DNA of 64,000 nucleotides. It comes from Planctomycetota bacterium (GTDB lineage Bacteria > Planctomycetota > Phycisphaerae > Tepidisphaerales > Tepidisphaeraceae). Numbering within the stretch: the stretch's first letter is position 1; every line of letters starts with the position of its first letter. Positions 13,753 through 62,973 of the stretch are shown here, piece by piece. The stretch is taken from the NCBI GenBank assembly GCA_026693085.1, contig JAPLNB010000155.1, positions 1 to 64,000 of the forward strand, given 5' to 3'. The position numbers and the translations under genes were made by a program. A model generated the notes under the pieces. That model was not told where the DNA came from. It saw only the letters and a program-made list of their open reading frames with translations, and did not search any database.

Positions 13753-14280
13753 GTAGGTTTGTCTGATAGAAATGTTCGTCAACAAGTTGGATTATGGCGG
13801 GAATTCGTGGGGATGGGAGGCTGAGAGACCATGATGTCATTTCATATGCTCTTGTCGAGGTTCCAGGGGATATGAACGTGCGTTTCCGGGTTGTGTCGCC
13901 TCGGTTTGGTGCGTAAGTTCGTACAAAGAAGAAGCGATATGACGGGGGGCATGGAGGCGGATGGTCGTCATTTATTGTGGCGAATTGGTTTGACACTTTG
14001 AGGCGGGTTGCCAGATCCAGTTGTTATCGGAGGGAGGTGGAGGAGAAGGTTGGGTCTGCCTCGTGGGTTCCCCTCTCCGGGCACGAGGCCGTGAACGGTT
14101 AGGTATTTTTCTTGTAAGTGGCACGAATCGGTGCCATATTCTATCATTGGCAGTTCGGTGGGCACCGTGGTTTTTGTGCGCATCTCTGCGGTCAGCGGGC
14201 TGTCTCGATTGGGCAAACATGGGAATCTGCGTAATGAGTCCCATTCGCTGCCTGCGTCCAGCGCGAGGAGGAGAAATTTC
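13753..14280 (+). other. intergenic region with leader of the giant exported protein
   Basis: No gene is supported here. A possible weak promoter for the downstream gene is TTGTAA (14112-14117) with TATTCT (14137-14142) at a long 19-base spacing; a GGCAC/GTGCC inverted repeat (about 14120-14135) lies between the two hexamers and could be an operator. If used, the leader would be about 130 bases. The open frame of the giant protein reaches back to 14131, but only ATG 14281 has a ribosome binding site. Confidence 0.35.
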
Positions 14281-17200
14281 ATGCGGTCACGTCGCTCTTT
14301 GCGTCGTTCTAAAGCCTTGTTGAGAATCATTTTACCAGCCACTGCGGTCTTAGCCGCCGCTCAGCAGGCGGTGGCGGGCTCGGTCAACTCGACCTGGACC
14401 GGAGCCGCGGGCAGCACCAGCTACGACACATCCGGCAACTGGGACCCCAGCGGGGTGCCTATCAATAGCGAGACGGACACGTACAACGTGTCTATACCGA
14501 ACAATGTTAGTGTGATATACGACGTAGGTGGGCCGCAATTGGTGACGGATCTGGTTCTGGGCGTCGGCGCAACGTTCACGGTTGCGGCAGGCAAGAGCCT
14601 GACGGTGCTGGATGATGCGAAGATTGGGGGGCTGCTGGTGGTTGACACCGGGAGCTTCATCGCCTCGTCGGCCGCGGCTCAGTTCACGGGCAATGCGGCC
14701 CGTTTGCAGGCATCTGGCGGGGGCGCGTTCACCGTCGCCGCCACGTCCTACACTGCCGCCGGCCTCGGTGGGGGCAATTACACCCTTTTTTCGGCCACGG
14801 GTGCTGGAACCGCGATAAACGTGTCTTCCCTTCAGACTCTGAGCGATGCCTGGGACGATGGCTGGGGCGGCGTGCGCGTTCACACCATTTCCGCCTCCAA
14901 TAGCGCCGCCATCAACCTGTCCAAGGTTCAGAATCTGGTCGGGCCCGTCCGTGGCGAAGACCGCCTAGATATCGTGACTGCCAGTGGGGCATCGATTGAT
15001 TTCTCGGGTTTGCAGTCGATCACCGGAGCCGGGCAGGTCCGCTTCATCACCGATGGCACGGCCTTCTCCCTTGCTTCGCTGGCCAGTTGTTCCATCCTGA
15101 GCATCAACGTCGGGGCGAACGCGACGGTGGACCTGCCGGCGCTGACCACGGCCTCGGCCTTCGGTGTCACTGCAGGGGATAGTTCGGTCGTCAACCTGCC
15201 CGTTCTGACCACTTTGGCGAACAGCAACATCTCACTGGCCAACAACCAGACGATCAACGCGCCCAATCTCAAGACCTTCACCGGCAGCAGCCTGACCCTC
15301 GGGCCCAACCAGACCCTTAACGCACCGGCCTTCACCACGATCGACAACTCCAGCTTCATCCTCAGCGGCGGCAAGACCCTGGCAGTGAACACCCCCACGT
15401 ATTCTGCGGTTGGAGTCGGGGCGAGTGCCTCGCTCATCTCGCTCTCGGGTTCCGGAACGAGCCTCGATTTCTCGACGGTCAAGACGCTCAACGACGGCTT
15501 CAACGACAGTTGGGGCGGGGTCAACGTGCATACCATATCGGTCGCCAGCAATGCCTCGCTCGACCTGTCCAATACGCAGAACATCATCTCCCCGGCGCGC
15601 GGCGAGGACCGGCTCGACTTCGTCGTCAGCTCCGGTGGGTCGGTGAATCTGACCAGCCTCCAGACGATCACCGGCGCGGGGCAGGTCCGCTTCGTCGTCG
15701 ATTCGCCTACGTTTACCCTGCCGGTTCTGACGGCCGCGTCCGGCGTCACCTTTGTCATGAGCGGCGGCTCGACGCTCGGTTTTCCGCTACTGGAAACCGC
15801 TGATCGCACGGCACTGAACGTCCCGAACAGCGGCACCTTCAACGCCAACGCCCTGAAGACGTTAACCAACTCCTCGATCACGCTCGGCACCGGCGGAACG
15901 CTCAACGCGACCTCGCTGAGGACCTTCACCAGCAGTTCCCTGACGCTCGGCGGCGGGCAGACCCTGAACGCGCCCGGTTTCACCAACATTGATAATTCCG
16001 TCTTCGCGATTTCCGGAGGCGCGACGTTCGCGAGCCCTGTCACGGCCTACAATGCCACAGGGCTGGCAGGCAGCAGCACGCTCTTGAACGTCTCGGGCGC
16101 CGGGTCCACGATGGATCTGTCCGCCGCCCAGACTTTCAACGACGCGTGGAACGACAGTTGGGGCGGGGTCCAGGTTCACACCATCTCGGTTAGCGGGGGC
16201 GGCACGATCAACCTCTCCAATGTCAGCACGCTCATTGCCCCCGCGCGAGCCGAGGATCGGCTCGACATCGTGATGGGGTCCGGGGGCACGGTCAACCTGG
16301 CCAAGCTTCAGTCGATCACCGGAGCCGGGCAGGTTCGTTTTGTGAGCGACGCCGCGACATTCACGCTGCCGATGCTCGCGCAGGCCGCGGGGCTGAGTTT
16401 TGCGATGAATGCCTCCTCCGTTCTCTCTCTGCCGGCCCTGACCAACGCCGACCGCTCCGCATTCACTGTGCCTGCTTCCGGGACGTTCAACCTGCCGCTG
16501 CTTACCACGCTCACCAACTCATCGATCGATCTGGCTGCCGCTGCCACTTTCAATGCCCCCAGCCTCAAGTCCTTCACCAATGGGACCTTGTCACTTAACA
16601 CCGGTTCAAACCTCAATACGCCGGCCTTCACGAACATCAACAACTCGAGGATCACTCTGACCGGGGGCGCGACGCTGACGGCGGCCGTCCCCGATTACTC
16701 TGCGACCGCTCTTGGCGCAAGCTACACGCTGTTCAACGTGTCCGGCGCCGGCTCGGCGCTTGACCTTTCGTCCGTGCTGAATTTCAGCGACGCGTGGGAC
16801 GATGGCTGGGGGGGGACCCAGGTCCACACCATCTCCGTCACGAACGGCGGCACCATTAACTTGGGCAACCTCCAAATCCTCGCGGTGCCCGTGCGGGCCG
16901 AAGATCGTCTGGATCTGGTTACCGGCACCGGAGGCACGATCAACCTGGCGAAACTGCAATCGTTCGTAGGCAGCGGGCAGGTCCGCGTCGTGTCCGACGC
17001 GGCGAACCTGACTTTGCCCGGCTTGGCCAGCGCCAATGGCCTGAGCTTCGCGATGAACGCGGGTTCGACCGTCAGTCTGCCCGTTCTGGCGAGCGCGGAT
17101 CGCGCCACCCTTGCGGTTCCCGATGCGGGCACGTTCAACCTGCCGCAGTTGGCAATCCTGACCAACTCGTCGATCGCCGTCGGCACCGGCGGCACGTTCA

Positions 17201-19488
17201 GCGCCCCCAAACTCAAGACCTTTACCGGCGGCAGTCTCAGCCTTGGCGCAAACCAGACCCTCAACGTGCCGGCCTTTACGTCGTTCAATAACACGGGCTT
17301 CACTCTCAGCGGCGGCGTCACCTATGCGGTCGCAGCGCCCGTCTATTCCGCCACCGCGCTTAACGGAGCCGCCACCCTCATCTCGCTCTCCGGCAGCGGC
17401 ACGAGCCTTGACTTCTCCTCCGTCAGGACCTTTAACGACGGCTGGGACGATAGCTGGGGCGGCACGCAGGTCCACACCCTCTCCGTCTCGAACAATGCCT
17501 CCCTTAATCTGTCCAATACGCAGACCCTCATCTCGCCCGCCCGCGCTGAGGATCGCCTGGACATCGTCACCGATTCCGGCGGGTTCGTGGATCTAAGCTC
17601 GCTGACTTCCATCACGAAACCCGGCCAGACGCGCTTTGTCGTCGGCGGAGGCTCGTCCATCCGCGTCGGGGATGTGAAGTCCAACCAGAACGTGGGCATC
17701 TACCTTTCGGACGTCACCTCTTCGTTCCGGGCCATCGGATCGCTGCTGCTTGGCAACAACACCCTCTCGGCGGCGGCCGGCTCCAAGATCACCATCGGTC
17801 GGCATTTCACGCACTCGGCCACGGATGAAGCCAAGGTGAACACCACGTCCGCGATCGTTCAGTTGGTAGGCCCCGGCGCACAGAGCATGGAAGTGGCCGG
17901 CAAAGACTCGGGCCTGCCGACGGATGCGTTGCCGGCCCACAACTTTGCCATCGGGCAGCTCGTGGTCGGATCGGACGAGCAGCCGAGCGTCGTGGAACTG
18001 CTCGATGTGGTGGACAACGGCAATCGCGGCGGGTCGGGAGGGAACACCGAGGCGCTCTACCTGCCCGGGCTGGGCGGGCCTGACGGACTGGTGCTCAAGG
18101 CCGGTTCGACGCTGGTTCTTGGCTCGGTCAATGTGTACTACCGCGAGGGCGCGACATGGAAGAGGCTGAATGATCTTCTGAGCGCGGGGGGCCCCACGCC
18201 GGTTGGCCCGGCTTACATCAGCTCATCGCGCGAGCTGGTTCCCAATGCCTGGAACCTCGACGCCAATGGCACTTGGTCGCCGGACGCGAACTGGGTCGTG
18301 GGCGCCCCCAATCAGCTCGGCCTGGGCGCCTATTTTGGCGCCAAGGCCACCGCTTCGCGCACGGTCACGGTGGATAGCGACAAGACCATCGGAGTGATCA
18401 ATTTCGACAACGCCAGCGGCTACACGGTCGCCGGCCCGGGCACGATCAAGCTCCAGGTGGCCGGCGACACCCGCGCCGCCATCAACGTCACCAATCGCAA
18501 CGGCAATGGCAACCATCGGATCGAGGCGGCGTTGCAGCTCAATAGCCCGCTTTGGATCAGCCAGGAGTCCACCGGCCAACTGACTCTCGCCGGGCCGTTG
18601 AACAACGCCGCGGGCCAGACGGTGGCGAAGTGGGGCGCGGGGGAGGCGGTGATCAGCGGGGCGCAGACGCACGGGGCGGGGGCGAGGATACTGGGGTATG
18701 AAGGGACGTTGCGGCTGAAGAGCGATGCGGGGACGGGTTTGTCGCGGACGGCGAGCGTGGAGGCGGCGGGGGGGACGATTGTGCTGGAGACGGCGCAGCA
18801 TCTGGCGAGCGCGTATGCTTATGATGGGAAGATCGAGTTGAAGGCGGGGCGGGACAAGGTGATTGTGGCGGATGAGGTGGGTTTGGGGGTCGCGGGGAAG
18901 ATTGATTTGATGGACAATGCGATGGTTGTGCCGTCGGATGCGGGGAACCGGGATGGTGTGCTGCAGTGGGTTGCGCAGCAGGTGAAGTCGGGGCGGAATA
19001 CGTCGCCGTTGTGGCAGGGAGCGGGGATTACGAGTTCGAAGGCGGCGGCGAATGGGTTCACGGGGTTGGCGGCGGTGATTAACGATAACGGGGAAGGCGT
19101 GACACTCGTGAGCAATGTTCTGGGGGAGAAAGTGGGGGTGAATGACATCATCGTCGGGTTTGTGTGGAATGGGGACGGGAATCTGGATGGTGTGATCAAT
19201 GCGGATGACTATTTCCGGATTGACAGCGGGTACATCACGCAGAAGGGGGGCTGGTGCCAGGGGGAGTTTAACTATGATGGGGTGGTGAATGCGGATGATT
19301 ATTTCTTGATTGACTCGGCGTATATCGGGCAGAGTGGGGCGATGCCGCTGGAGAAGGCGGGGATGTTTGCGGGGAGGGGGGTGGCGGTGCCGGAGGTTGG
19401 GGGGATGGGGTTGGGGTTGTTGGGGGTGGGGATGATGTGGAAGAGGAGGCGGAGGGGGAGAGATTGGAAATTGACAATTGGAAATTGA
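14281..19488 (+). CDS. giant exported repeat protein with dockerin-like repeats and PEP-CTERM tail
   Basis: The 1735-residue product is a surface or extracellular protein. ATG 14281 follows AGGAGGAG and starts a signal peptide (MRSRRSLRRSKALLRIILPA, cleaved near AAAQQAVAG). Residues about 35-130 form a beta-strand-rich opening (STWTGAAGSTSYDTSGNW). Residues about 150-1120 hold five copies of a 216-residue unit marked by DxWDDxWGG-x-VHTIS and RxEDRLDxV. A second 'NLDANGTWSPDANW' beta domain follows near 1320. Two dockerin type I-like calcium loops (DGNLDGVINADDYF and YDGVVNADDYFLID) lie near 1630-1685. VPEVGGMGLG with a membrane segment and RRRR at the very end is a PEP-CTERM exosortase sorting signal. 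Codon use changes sharply at about 18,600. The ligand or structural role is unknown. Confidence 0.85.
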   Translation: MRSRRSLRRSKALLRIILPATAVLAAAQQAVAGSVNSTWTGAAGSTSYDTSGNWDPSGVPINSETDTYNVSIPNNVSVIYDVGGPQLVTDLVLGVGATFTVAAGKSLTVLDDAKIGGLLVVDTGSFIASSAAAQFTGNAARLQASGGGAFTVAATSYTAAGLGGGNYTLFSATGAGTAINVSSLQTLSDAWDDGWGGVRVHTISASNSAAINLSKVQNLVGPVRGEDRLDIVTASGASIDFSGLQSITGAGQVRFITDGTAFSLASLASCSILSINVGANATVDLPALTTASAFGVTAGDSSVVNLPVLTTLANSNISLANNQTINAPNLKTFTGSSLTLGPNQTLNAPAFTTIDNSSFILSGGKTLAVNTPTYSAVGVGASASLISLSGSGTSLDFSTVKTLNDGFNDSWGGVNVHTISVASNASLDLSNTQNIISPARGEDRLDFVVSSGGSVNLTSLQTITGAGQVRFVVDSPTFTLPVLTAASGVTFVMSGGSTLGFPLLETADRTALNVPNSGTFNANALKTLTNSSITLGTGGTLNATSLRTFTSSSLTLGGGQTLNAPGFTNIDNSVFAISGGATFASPVTAYNATGLAGSSTLLNVSGAGSTMDLSAAQTFNDAWNDSWGGVQVHTISVSGGGTINLSNVSTLIAPARAEDRLDIVMGSGGTVNLAKLQSITGAGQVRFVSDAATFTLPMLAQAAGLSFAMNASSVLSLPALTNADRSAFTVPASGTFNLPLLTTLTNSSIDLAAAATFNAPSLKSFTNGTLSLNTGSNLNTPAFTNINNSRITLTGGATLTAAVPDYSATALGASYTLFNVSGAGSALDLSSVLNFSDAWDDGWGGTQVHTISVTNGGTINLGNLQILAVPVRAEDRLDLVTGTGGTINLAKLQSFVGSGQVRVVSDAANLTLPGLASANGLSFAMNAGSTVSLPVLASADRATLAVPDAGTFNLPQLAILTNSSIAVGTGGTFSAPKLKTFTGGSLSLGANQTLNVPAFTSFNNTGFTLSGGVTYAVAAPVYSATALNGAATLISLSGSGTSLDFSSVRTFNDGWDDSWGGTQVHTLSVSNNASLNLSNTQTLISPARAEDRLDIVTDSGGFVDLSSLTSITKPGQTRFVVGGGSSIRVGDVKSNQNVGIYLSDVTSSFRAIGSLLLGNNTLSAAAGSKITIGRHFTHSATDEAKVNTTSAIVQLVGPGAQSMEVAGKDSGLPTDALPAHNFAIGQLVVGSDEQPSVVELLDVVDNGNRGGSGGNTEALYLPGLGGPDGLVLKAGSTLVLGSVNVYYREGATWKRLNDLLSAGGPTPVGPAYISSSRELVPNAWNLDANGTWSPDANWVVGAPNQLGLGAYFGAKATASRTVTVDSDKTIGVINFDNASGYTVAGPGTIKLQVAGDTRAAINVTNRNGNGNHRIEAALQLNSPLWISQESTGQLTLAGPLNNAAGQTVAKWGAGEAVISGAQTHGAGARILGYEGTLRLKSDAGTGLSRTASVEAAGGTIVLETAQHLASAYAYDGKIELKAGRDKVIVADEVGLGVAGKIDLMDNAMVVPSDAGNRDGVLQWVAQQVKSGRNTSPLWQGAGITSSKAAANGFTGLAAVINDNGEGVTLVSNVLGEKVGVNDIIVGFVWNGDGNLDGVINADDYFRIDSGYITQKGGWCQGEFNYDGVVNADDYFLIDSAYIGQSGAMPLEKAGMFAGRGVAVPEVGGMGLGLLGVGMMWKRRRRGRDWKLTIGN
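14740..17640 (+). repeat. five in-frame units at exactly 648-bp spacing
   Basis: The TGGGG of the WGG landmark occurs at 14863, 15511, 16159, 16807 and 17455, each exactly 648 bases (216 codons) after the last. Units share GQVRF, TLPxL, FTxxSLTLG and PAFTxxNN motifs but differ at many positions. The fifth unit is incomplete and gives way to non-repeat sequence after about 17640. Unit boundaries are arbitrary. Confidence 0.9.
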
Positions 19489-19500
19489 GAAATGTAAAAT
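19463..19500. repeat. AATTG-word palindromic repeat at the 3' end of the giant gene
   Basis: The sequence alternates TTGGAAATTG and TTGACAATTG words. It lies across the last codons (WKLTIGN) and stop of the giant protein gene, and belongs to the same loose family as repeats at 21134 and 34273. Confidence 0.6.
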
Positions 19501-20711: not shown

Positions 20712-21304
20712 GAGGTGATCTCCTGTGGGCGAAGGCCTAGTTGAGCGTGGTACATGATAGCGTGAGGTAGTTGCCAGTTTCCAGTTATTGGTTGCCAGGG
20801 GGGAATTGGGTTCGTTTTGTCGAGGCGGGGTGGAGGGGGCGGAGGGAGAGAGGGGCGGAGTTTGGGTGGTGCGGCGGGTGCGAGAATGGGTGCGAGTGGT
20901 GTGGGCCATGAACAATGCCTCCCTATATAGGGGGGTGTTGCGCGAGAAGTGAGGCGGCGGCGCAGCGCGAATCGGGGGGGGAGGGGGTTTTTGTGGGGGA
21001 ATGGGGTGAAAGCACTTTTGGGTTTTTCCGGGGGCGCAGCGCCGTGAATGTTGGGAAGATGTGGTAGCGGGTGGTTTGCGGGAGGGAGAGGGTCTTGGCG
21101 GGTCTGTTACGCACCCTGGGACTGTTGTGCGGACATTGGCAATTGAGAATTGCCAATTGTCAATTGCCAAATGGGGTGGGTGGGGGGTGGAGGCAGGGCG
21201 AACGCAATTGGCAGAACGGCTGGTCTCGGGCCGCCTTCAGGCAGTGGCAGGCGAGAGGGGGGGCTTTCGTATTTTCGGGGACCTATTTAGAATCAAGAAT
21301 TGAT
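20712..21304. other. intergenic region with palindromic word repeats
   Basis: No gene is supported. The stretch holds a short repeat at 20770-20798 built of TTGCCAG/CCAGTT words, a G-rich run at 20820-21060, and a longer palindromic repeat at 21134-21172. Downstream of the latter there is no good ribosome binding site for the ADP-ribosylglycohydrolase start. Confidence 0.6.
21134..21172. repeat. CAATTG-word palindromic repeat
   Basis: Overlapping words TTGGCAATTGAGAATTGCCA and ATTGTCAATTGCCAA form a self-complementary stretch able to fold into a hairpin. It is a clear member of the dispersed intergenic repeat family of this window. Confidence 0.75.
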
Positions 21305-36014: not shown

Positions 36015-37484
36015 ATGCTCGACGCACTGACGGAACGATTCAGCAAAGTATTCCGAGGCCTTTCGGGTCGCGGGCGAATCAGCGAGGAGAACGTCCGCGA
36101 AGCGATGCGTGAGGTTCGCACGGCGCTGCTTGAAGCGGACGTCAACCTCCAAGTGGTTAAGGACTTCACGGACAAGGTTCTGGAAAGAGCCACGGGGCAG
36201 GAGGTTATCCGCAGCCTGCAGCCTGGCCAACTGATGGTGAAGATTGTTTATGACGAGCTGGTGAACCTGATGGGCCCGGTGGACACGAACATTTTGTTTG
36301 TTCAGCCGGGTCCAACGATCATCATGATGTGCGGTCTGCAGGGCTCAGGTAAGACAACGACGTGCGGGAAACTGGCCAAGTATCTTGTTTCCAAAGGGCA
36401 TCAGCCTCTTCTGGGCGCGGCCGACTTGCAGCGTCCGGCCGCGATCGAACAGCTTCGTGTTGTCGGCGAGCAGGCAGGGGTACCCGTGTACAGCGATCCT
36501 GGGAGGGCCGCCGAGCATGGGCAAGTCGCTCGAGGCGCCGCGGTCGCCGTGTGCCGGGGTGCGGTGGCACAAGCCAAGTCAACGGGCCGTGATACGGTGA
36601 TTCTGGATACTGCCGGCCGGTTACATATTGACGACGAGCTGATGGGGGAGTTGCGTGAGATCAACTCGCAAATCAGGCCGCACCAGATTTTTCTGGTTCT
36701 GGATGCGATGTCCGGTCAGGATGCAGTGAACAGCGCCAAGGCGTTTAACGAACAGCTCGAGCTGGACGGGTTGATCCTGACGAAATTCGACTCCGACACC
36801 CGCGGCGGGGCGTTGTTGTCGGCGAAGATTATCACGGGCAAGCCGGTGAAGTTCATCGGCACGGGGGAGAAGCTTGACGGGATCGAGGAGTTTCGGCCGG
36901 AGGGCATGGCGCAGCGCATCCTGGGTATGGGCGACATTGTGGGCCTGGTGACGGAGGCGATGGACAAGTTCGACCAGGATGAGACGGCCCGGCTGCAAGC
37001 GAAGATGGAGAAGGGGAATTTCACGCTCGACGACTTTATGGCCCAGATGCGGCAGGTCCGGAAGCTTGGGCCGATGGGCAAGATCATGGGGATGATCCCC
37101 GGCATGAGCGAGCTGACGAAGCAGATGAACATGGGCGAAGGCGAAGTCGAGATGCAGATGACGCACATGCAGGCGATCTACAACTCGATGACTCCGACGG
37201 AGCGGAAGACCACCGATTTGATCGAGGGTGGGAGGCGGCGGCGTATTGCGCGTGGGGCGGGTGTGGAGCTCAACGAGGTCGGGCAGTTCATCAAGCAATT
37301 CGAGATGAGCCGCGACATGATGCGTGCGGTCGGCGGCATGGGAATGATGGGCAAAATGCAGCTCATGAAGTCGCTGATGTCCGGCAAACTCAACACGCTG
37401 GGCATGCCTGGCGGGCCGATGCTCAAGACCAAGAAATCGAGTTACATGGAGAAGAAGGACCGGAATAAGAGGAAGAAGCGATGA
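36015..37484 (+). CDS. ffh: signal recognition particle protein Ffh
   Basis: Ffh is the GTPase of the signal recognition particle; with 4.5S RNA it targets nascent membrane proteins to FtsY. The 489-residue product has the N domain (residues 1-85), the G domain with MCGLQGSGKTTTCGKLAKYL near 108, DTAGRLHIDDELM near 198 and TKFDSDTRGGALLS near 255, and the methionine-rich M domain from about 325 (MGKIMGMIPGMSELTKQMNM). It ends in a basic tail. AAGGA precedes ATG 36015 by six bases. It is followed by recX after a short repeat-bearing gap. The ADLQRP motif replaces the commoner D-x-x-RPAA context only slightly. Confidence 0.96.
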   Translation: MLDALTERFSKVFRGLSGRGRISEENVREAMREVRTALLEADVNLQVVKDFTDKVLERATGQEVIRSLQPGQLMVKIVYDELVNLMGPVDTNILFVQPGPTIIMMCGLQGSGKTTTCGKLAKYLVSKGHQPLLGAADLQRPAAIEQLRVVGEQAGVPVYSDPGRAAEHGQVARGAAVAVCRGAVAQAKSTGRDTVILDTAGRLHIDDELMGELREINSQIRPHQIFLVLDAMSGQDAVNSAKAFNEQLELDGLILTKFDSDTRGGALLSAKIITGKPVKFIGTGEKLDGIEEFRPEGMAQRILGMGDIVGLVTEAMDKFDQDETARLQAKMEKGNFTLDDFMAQMRQVRKLGPMGKIMGMIPGMSELTKQMNMGEGEVEMQMTHMQAIYNSMTPTERKTTDLIEGGRRRRIARGAGVELNEVGQFIKQFEMSRDMMRAVGGMGMMGKMQLMKSLMSGKLNTLGMPGGPMLKTKKSSYMEKKDRNKRKKR

Positions 37485-37542
37485 GAGTTGTGAGTTGTCA
37501 GTGTGGTTTACGCGGCTGGTGAGTGGCAACTGGGGACTGGGA
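37485..37542. repeat. intergenic word repeat between ffh and recX
   Basis: GAGTTGTGAGTTGTCAGTG and GAGTGGCAACTGGGGACTGG words occupy the gap. AGTTGTCAGT also occurs in the repeat inserted in rnpB. Confidence 0.55.
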
Positions 37543-37549
37543 CCGACGT

Positions 37550-50004: not shown

Positions 50005-50010
50005 GATCAT

Positions 50011-50500
50011 GCTGCGGCAGCGCATAAGCCGAATTCTGTTCTCCGATGGTTGCCCAAGGGAGGGCGATCATTTCTCTGGGACGTGCGTTGCCGCACGCCT
50101 CAAGCGACCTACCCGCGGAGTTGTCCTGGCGAAAGCCAGGACGCCCAGGGCTTGGGCGTGCTCCGCCTATTTGGTCTTGCTGACGGTGGGGTTTGCCTTG
50201 CCGCCGGAGTCACCCCCGGCGCGGTGCGCTCTTACCGCACCATTTCACCCTTACCGGAAGCAGTTGCCAGTTGTCAGTTACCAGTACAAGGCGAACACAC
50301 TGGCAGCTAAGGACTGACAACTGCTCCCGGCGGTATTTTTTCTGTTGCACTTTCCGTCGGATTACTCCGCCTTGCCGTTGGCAAGCACCGCGCCCGGGGC
50401 GGCACGGGTCGAACCTGCGCCGGCCCCACAGTTCGGACTTTCCTCATCCTTGGTTGCTCTTGCGGGCAGCAAAGGATGCGACCGCCTCAGCGGCCGCAGC
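50011..50500 (-). ncRNA. rnpB: RNase P RNA, bacterial type A, with expanded P12
   Basis: This catalytic RNA removes 5' leaders from pre-tRNAs. On the minus strand the ends pair as helix P1 (GCTGCGGC at 50500-50493 with GCCGCAGC at 50018-50011). Conserved regions are present in order: GAGGAAAGTCCG (P4 5' strand), AGTGCAACAGA, GGGTGAAATGGTGCGGTAAG, GCAAGACCAAATAGG, GGGTAGGTCGCTTGAG and the 3' AATTCGGCTTAT. The length is about 490 nucleotides against roughly 380 for E. coli; much of the excess is a 70-base insertion in P12 carrying a dispersed repeat. A TATAAT and an intrinsic terminator frame the gene. Confidence 0.95.
50258..50328 (-). repeat. palindromic word repeat forming the P12 arm of rnpB
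   Basis: Within rnpB, GAGCAGTTGTCAGT and ACTGACAACTGGCAACTGCT (minus strand) pair to extend helix P12. The words AGTTGTCAGT and TTGCCAGTT match those of the intergenic repeats at 37485 and 20770. Confidence 0.75.
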
Positions 50501-50664: not shown

Positions 50665-51357
50665 ATGCAGAAGCGCGCGGAAAAAGCAGTCAGTGCCAAA
50701 GTCCCGGTGAAGCCTGCGGCTGAGGACGTGGTTGAGCTCAAGCCGGTCGCTCTTGGCCGGGCGTCGGATGAAGATCTGATGCGGCGGACTCAGCAGGGTG
50801 ATCGGCAGGCTTTTTCGCTGCTGTACGAGCGTTACAGCGCCTCGGTGCTGTCGTACTTGTATCGGATGATGGGCAACGTCGAAGACGTCGAGTCGATCGC
50901 GCAGGAAGTTTTTCTCAGGGCTTTCCGCTTTGCCGCCACTTATCGTTATCCGCAGAAATTTTCGACCTGGCTGTTCACGATTACGCGTAACTTGGCGATC
51001 AACTACTCGAGGCGGCGGAAGCGCAGCCCCGTGCGCAACGTTACGGAGCTCAATCTTGAAGGCGTGGACATCAACGGCGACCCGTACCAGATTGCGCATC
51101 GGGCGACCGACGACGTGGAGAAACAGGAAGAGATCGCCCGCGTGCTGCAGGCATTGGACGGTCTGCCGACCGATCAGAAGGAGGTCATTGTTTTGGGGGT
51201 TTTCCAGGACCTGTCCTATGCTGAGATGGAAGAGATCACGGGCACCAAGGCGGTTACTCTTCGTTCTCGGATGTTTCATGGGCTGAAGCGGCTGACCCGC
51301 ATGCTGAGCAGCAAGAGCGACGATGATGCAACACTGAAGGAGAACAGCCAACGCTGA
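50665..51357 (+). CDS. ECF-family RNA polymerase sigma factor
   Basis: The 230-residue protein is an extracytoplasmic-function sigma factor. After about 35 variable residues, region 2 (DLMRRTQQGDRQAFSLLYER to FSTWLFTITRNLAINYSRRR) runs to about 118. Region 4 (LQALDGLPTDQKEVIVLGVF, then LSYAEMEEITGTKAVTLRSR) runs from about 160 to 212. It starts about 150 bases from the rnpB promoter, in the opposite direction. The next gene, 28 bases downstream, encodes a single-span membrane protein that is probably its regulator. Confidence 0.92.
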   Translation: MQKRAEKAVSAKVPVKPAAEDVVELKPVALGRASDEDLMRRTQQGDRQAFSLLYERYSASVLSYLYRMMGNVEDVESIAQEVFLRAFRFAATYRYPQKFSTWLFTITRNLAINYSRRRKRSPVRNVTELNLEGVDINGDPYQIAHRATDDVEKQEEIARVLQALDGLPTDQKEVIVLGVFQDLSYAEMEEITGTKAVTLRSRMFHGLKRLTRMLSSKSDDDATLKENSQR

Positions 51358-62868: not shown

Positions 62869-62902
62869 GGCGTCCCTGCCATCAAAAAAAACGTGGAATA
62901 CA

Positions 62903-62955
62903 GAATGATGAATGATGAGTCAGAAGACGCATTTTTGACTCATCATTTATCATTT
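62903..62955. repeat. long palindromic repeat
   Basis: AATGATGAATGATGAGTCA pairs with TGACTCATCATTTATCATT over a 13-base loop, forming a nearly perfect 19-base stem between the SpoIID and TPR/alpha-CTD genes. It may also slow transcription ends on either strand. Confidence 0.7.
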
Positions 62956-62973
62956 TGCAGGCAATATTCTCGC

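Follow-up and report, generated by a model that had tools for sequence, protein, structure and literature searches.

Helix P12 of the RNase P RNA of a planctomycete of the family Tepidisphaeraceae is extended by a long hairpin composed of 7-bp tandem repeats, and repeats of the same kind are dispersed in the host genome (G000). Probably, this extension is a copy of the host's own dispersed short-tandem-repeat palindrome, which landed in the P12 loop and was tolerated as a self-folding element. The same helix has been colonised repeatedly across the phylum by differing 7- and 8-mers, and neither this nor the 7-bp periodicity was part of the initial annotation of the locus.

THE P12 EXTENSION AND ITS STRUCTURE

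The analysed window (the whole stretch of 64,000 nucleotides) contains a full-length rnpB gene, the only one found in the 6.2 Mb genome. Its assignment to class A RNase P RNA follows from a cmscan score of 255.2 bits, against a curated value of 100, and from the presence of the conserved core. The gene is positioned between lexA and an ECF sigma factor gene, and the parts of its P12 helix are listed beneath these neighbours.

50009..50498, minus strand: rnpB, class A RNase P RNA, 490 nt, full length (RF00010, 255.2 bits, E 5.3e-82, model 1-367)
49610-48969, minus strand: lexA, one neighbour of rnpB
50665-51357, plus strand: ECF sigma factor gene, the other neighbour
50329..50334, minus strand: basal P12 stem, 5' side, ACCGCC, retained (cmscan alignment, fold; match to the plain P12 of L042)
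50299..50323, minus strand: inserted hairpin, RNA 5' arm, CAGTTGTCAGTCCTTAGCTGCCAGT, heptads in part decayed (sequence, fold, pattern matches)
50286..50298, minus strand: inserted hairpin, apical loop (fold)
50261..50285, minus strand: inserted hairpin, RNA 3' arm, ACTGGTAACTGACAACTGGCAACTG (Tandem Repeats Finder, genome matches)

The surplus bases that make up the extension fall between RF00010 model positions 136 and 137, which correspond to the apical loop of P12 in the cmscan alignment, and the same insertion point is found in six further rnpB genes (L034, L047, L048, L095, L172 and L083). They form an additional hairpin, some 65-70 nt long and located at 50258-50328, in which a tandem heptamer, (CAGTTGN)n, stands opposite its reverse complement above the basal P12 stem. 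The initial annotation correctly placed an element of about 70 bases in P12; its statement that the arm had been replaced does not hold, as the basal stem is kept and the plain state is seen in a relative (CCGGGA-[hairpin]-TTCCGG in the window versus CCGGGA-GAAA-TCCCGG in L042).

The heptad structure is clearest at 50261-50285, which on the plus strand reads CAGTTGC CAGTTGT CAGTTAC CAGT and which Tandem Repeats Finder reports with a period of 7, 3.6 copies and 83% matches. The arms of the window P12 show an excess at lag 7 (p = 0.004, lag test with shuffled arms). The insert folds into a single long hairpin that runs on from P12, with an energy of -51 kcal/mol as compared with -28 +/- 3 for shuffled sequences (z = -7.4), which bears out the earlier claim that the stem has been kept paired.

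COPIES OF THE HEPTAD IN THE HOST GENOME

Within the window, AGTTGTCAGT with at most one mismatch has 6 matches against 1.8 expected, three of the six lying within P12, while TTGCCAGTT has 2 matches against 0.44 expected, a count reached by 6 of 100 shuffles. Since this word excess is modest and the copies are few, the window alone gives only moderate evidence of dispersal. Across the genome, the degenerate 17-mer CAGTTGNCAGTTGNCAG, again with at most one mismatch, is matched 71 times, on the forward strand in 38 cases and on the reverse in 33, whereas the reversed-pattern control has 0 matches. The repeat was initially described as a dispersed palindrome sharing words with P12; dispersal is confirmed by these counts, and the element is, besides a palindrome, a 7-bp tandem array. 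The two intergenic gaps named at that time, at 20770 and 37485, do contain copies, the second of which directly follows ffh (ORF 36015-37484, TIGR00959).

37485..37545, no strand assigned: intergenic copy of the P12 heptad palindrome, directly past the ffh stop codon (sequence, pattern)
20767..20799, no strand assigned: intergenic one-armed copy of the P12 heptad array, AGTTGCC AGTTTCC AGTTATT GGTTGCC AG (sequence, patterns)

The CAGTTG-type copies that were examined are intergenic and often abut start or stop codons. In some of them, two palindromic arms enclose a loop of 10-30 nt, others are single-armed, and both the number of units and the loops vary. Among the loci compared, several intergenic copies share with the P12 insert a 25-nt stretch that matches at 96% (E 2e-6). 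The loops of two-armed intergenic copies, which were delimited by hand, exceed GC-matched genomic pieces in mutual similarity (their value was reached in 0 of 300), and this likeness in sequence suggests that whole elements may have been copied. The loop of the P12 insert is no more similar to those of the other copies than chance allows, as 165 of 500 shuffles scored equally high, and a loop common to the P12 insert and the intergenic copies was therefore dropped as a proof of copying.

Several other repeats were encountered in this genome. In a ribosomal operon (L301, G000:C214:9714-12730, genes named from their translations), heptad palindromes occupy the rpmJ-rpsM and rpsM-rpsK gaps and a further heptad array lies near the rpsK-rpoA gap; the palindromes in these gaps may influence transcripts. 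Two more heptad arrays in the window, at 21135-21170 and 19463-19493, have related units (ATTGCCA and ATTGAAA) that are in part mutually complementary, and a further palindrome of 7-bp units (GAATGAT...), whose sequence is not related to that of the P12 family, is located at 62901-62957. The genome seems to contain more than one heptad family. A 1785-aa ORF at 14131-19488 has no Pfam or NCBIfam match, and its DNA includes a 648-bp internal repeat in at least four copies that are 61-72% alike.

P12 IN RELATED PLANCTOMYCETES

In the comparison, the genus is represented by the G000 genome alone and the order adds no genomes to the 26 of the family. An rnpB gene was found in 22 of these 26 and in 237 of the 258 genomes of the class. 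P12 was read in 145 same-class rnpB genes, after extension to the class had enlarged the set by 100 genes, and in 108 from a wider phylum sample assigned to Planctomycetota by placement. Periodicity was assessed against shuffled arms as the maximum over lags 4 to 12, in the same-class set together with a Gemmataceae sequence (L083).

Across the class and phylum sets, about 21 P12 arms show a period of 7 or 8 bp, their units being unrelated between lineages (GGCAGTA, AGTAGTC, GTTGCTG, AAGGATG, GAAACTC, GTGGGAAC and GAAACGYC). Among P12s of at least 45 nt, 20 of 37 are periodic at p <= 0.01, the best lag being 7 in 11 cases, 8 in 8 and 11 in 1; such rates are likely underestimates, since the matches listed lean towards high-scoring and hence shorter rnpB genes. 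In the family, P12 is either plain, as in L042, or a long palindrome of heptads other than that of the window: GGCAGTA in L047, L050 and L052, AGTAGTC in L048, GTTGCTG in L051 and AAGGATG in L034. At the class level, heptads are found in L109, L116 and L150, and octads in L058, L063, L086, L095, L096, L172, L179 and L180. The 108 P12s of the phylum set include heptad palindromes in L272 and L293 (both p = 0.001), with L240 at 0.013. These differing 7- or 8-mers indicate that the arm has been colonised repeatedly by the repeats of each host genome.

On a tree built from the rnpB core with P12 left out, the periodic state requires at least 13 changes, a count that does not separate gains from losses. 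The nearest neighbours of G000 on this tree include G015, with a different heptad (L048), and G019 and G024, with plain P12s (L042 and L043).

Outside P12, periodic windows were detected at 3 loci, two of them past the 3' end of rnpB; the third lies within the gene itself, at the P16/P17 region of L095. Arrays elsewhere in rnpB were considered as a sign that there is no site preference, a reading rejected on the basis of this single in-gene case; the restriction of in-gene arrays outside P12 to L095 points to a strong preference for P12. The L095 gene (from G238) has the GAAACGYC 8-mer family in both P12 and the P16/P17 region. A separate case is L061 (rnpB of G256), in which P12 is a perfect long palindrome containing the non-tandem repeat AAAAGGTTCCTGACACCTTTTT, which suggests that P12 also receives dispersed palindromes of other kinds.

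CORRESPONDENCE BETWEEN P12 AND HOST GENOME

For the four repeat families tested besides that of the window, the P12 unit is also present elsewhere in the same genome. Two consecutive GGCAGTA units (GGCAGTAGGCAGTAGGC) occur in 5 of the 26 family genomes (G005, 38; G006, 22; G020, 10; G023, 8; G022, 1), and the three carriers of GGCAGTA in P12 (G005, G006 and G023) are all within the top four by genome count. The doubled GTGGGAAC unit (GTGGGAACGTGGGAAC) is found in 6 of 258 class genomes, all from one family, with its carriers G232 (22 matches) and G102 (4) ranking first and second of the 258. Doubled GAAACGYC (GAAACGYCGAAACGYC) is more widespread, being present in 26 of 258 class genomes including all four carriers of a GAAACG-type P12; none of the matches listed for these four carriers lies inside rnpB. 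For AGTAGTC, the carrier G015 has 11 matches, 4 of them in rnpB. The carriers partly share ancestry, so these tests are not independent trials, and the GGCAGTA association may reflect a single event as its carriers form one clade.

The abundance of a unit alone fails as a predictor of P12 occupation, at least for GAAACGYC: four genomes with 25-39 matches (G211, G131, G215 and G203) have P12s that lack such arrays. The presence of the repeat family in the genome appears to be a necessary but not a sufficient condition for the occupation of P12. CAGTTG-type heptads abound in G011, G015, G020 and G021 as well; P12 is occupied by different heptads in the first three, and G021 yielded no rnpB gene.

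ORIGIN OF THE EXTENSION

The reading that we favour starts from a resident two-armed array, in which 7-bp units run one way, followed by a short loop and then by the reverse complement. A copy of such an array would enter the apical loop of P12, the distal end of which would tolerate additional length provided that the RNA there folds back on itself. As a palindromic array does so automatically, the basal stem and the catalytic core would be left undisturbed. The insertion may have been nearly neutral, with pairing acting as the selective filter, and the same event would have recurred in the phylum with whichever 7- or 8-mer family each lineage carried. That a repeat had invaded the helix, as first proposed, is supported by the genomic copies and by the unlike P12s of relatives; the outcome initially named as refuting it, a sequence common to all close relatives and no intergenic copies above chance, was not seen. 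The likeliest course is that a ready-made copy was inserted, short of proof over growth in place. Neither a target-site duplication nor a mobilising enzyme was identified in an unsystematic search, which weighs against this course.

Growth in place is the strongest of the other explanations, although distinctly less probable. The array would have expanded by slippage of 7- or 8-bp units, the opposite arm being matched by template switching, and its likeness to other arrays would reflect a genome-wide mutational habit. Such slippage could independently generate arrays of similar units, and it accords with the P12 loop having no excess similarity to other loops, with the many single-armed genomic copies of differing unit number, and with the different number of units in the P12 arms of the related genomes G005 and G006. 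On the other hand, the P12 unit matches a family scattered over many unrelated sites of the same genome, and slippage would have to begin from the same 14-16 bp every time. The similarity of the hand-cut loops of two-armed intergenic copies (0/300) also suggests the copying of whole elements.

It is improbable that the long P12 was selected for a function, for example stabilisation of the specificity domain or binding of a partner, with repeats serving as convenient material. Long P12s do recur in several families and are well paired; however, three relatives from the same family (L042, L043 and L033) have a P12 of only 11-13 nt, and P12 overall ranges from about 11 to more than 200 nt with unrelated sequences. 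Moreover, the cyanobacterial repeats in rnpB are reportedly dispensable for RNase P activity in vitro. P12 itself is sometimes dispensable, according to a passage of PMC2858038 that cites Vioque 1997 (Nucleic Acids Res 25:3471).

Ordinary inherited variation of P12 with coincidentally shared words, a reading already refuted, has a negligible probability: the word excess is modest within the window alone, but the genome-wide count is 71 versus 0, relatives lack the sequence, being plain or bearing an unrelated repeat, and the best lag is 7 or 8 in 19 of the 20 significant P12s.

RELATION TO KNOWN REPEATS

In heterocyst-forming cyanobacteria, the short tandemly repeated repetitive (STRR) sequences of rnpB are reportedly located in helix P12, and close strains are said to carry unrelated repeats there. 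The window resembles these systems in that its rnpB is lengthened in P12 by a 7-bp tandem repeat dispersed in the host genome, and in that close relatives have no repeat or an unrelated repeat in the helix. This likeness implies that the planctomycete case works like a known kind. The initial comparison with cyanobacterial tandem repeats was apt and even understated, because the window element is itself a heptamer tandem repeat. The planctomycete repeats differ in belonging to another phylum and to many families of it, in including 8-mers besides 7-mers, in forming one long palindrome from their arms, and in the match between unit and genome having been tested across up to 258 genomes. The host is not a heterocyst-forming cyanobacterium, which bears on the host range of rnpB invasion and not on its working. 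The title of Vioque 1997, as cited in PMC2858038, refers to STRR sequences within the rnpB genes of these cyanobacteria.

When 84,980 species genomes were scanned for exact matches to CAGTTG-type heptads beside the conserved J12/13 sequence, two were returned, a Gemmataceae MAG (L083) and Microcystis aeruginosa NIES-4325 (L082). In each of these, P12 holds a heptad palindrome with two arms. On an rnpB tree, the Gemmataceae sequence falls within the phylum set and that of Microcystis lies outside it; the window's organism is called a planctomycete on the strength of this placement.

Heptameric simple sequence repeats are also known from Nostoc and Xanthomonas, where they occur in many copies and are over-represented in non-coding DNA (PMC4692102). 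They share with the window family the 7-bp units and the high copy number; unlike it, they are G-rich (GGGNATC) and feature in quadruplex studies, and RNase P is not mentioned in that report. REPs (repetitive extragenic palindromes), described in a passage of PMC3733652 as non-tandem palindromes of 20-40 bp, are likewise short, dispersed and mainly intergenic, whereas the arms of P12-type elements are tandem 7- or 8-mers of variable number.

No description of repeat invasion of rnpB in planctomycetes was found in the literature searched, which included few subscription journals and did not extend to work on planctomycete RNase P RNA. The invasion of rnpB by repeats is itself known; the novelty here lies in the phylum and the breadth, in units of 8 bp, in the palindromic form and in the test of the match between unit and genome.

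CONCLUSIONS

It is conceivable, albeit very improbable, that P12 is a general landing pad recording the active 7- or 8-mer family of each lineage across phyla, and that a repeat-bearing P12 could pair in trans with messages, because the same units lie as transcribed hairpins between genes. If true, such pairing would give the repeats a route to act on RNA, or to be copied from it.

Dispersed tandem repeats have invaded a helix of an essential ribozyme recurrently in a second phylum, with different repeats each time, and such invasion is not peculiar to heterocystous cyanobacteria. As the site is constant and the core can be aligned, rnpB provides a dated and countable record of repeat gain, loss and replacement, and this record in P12 offers a way to ask how these poorly understood repeats move.
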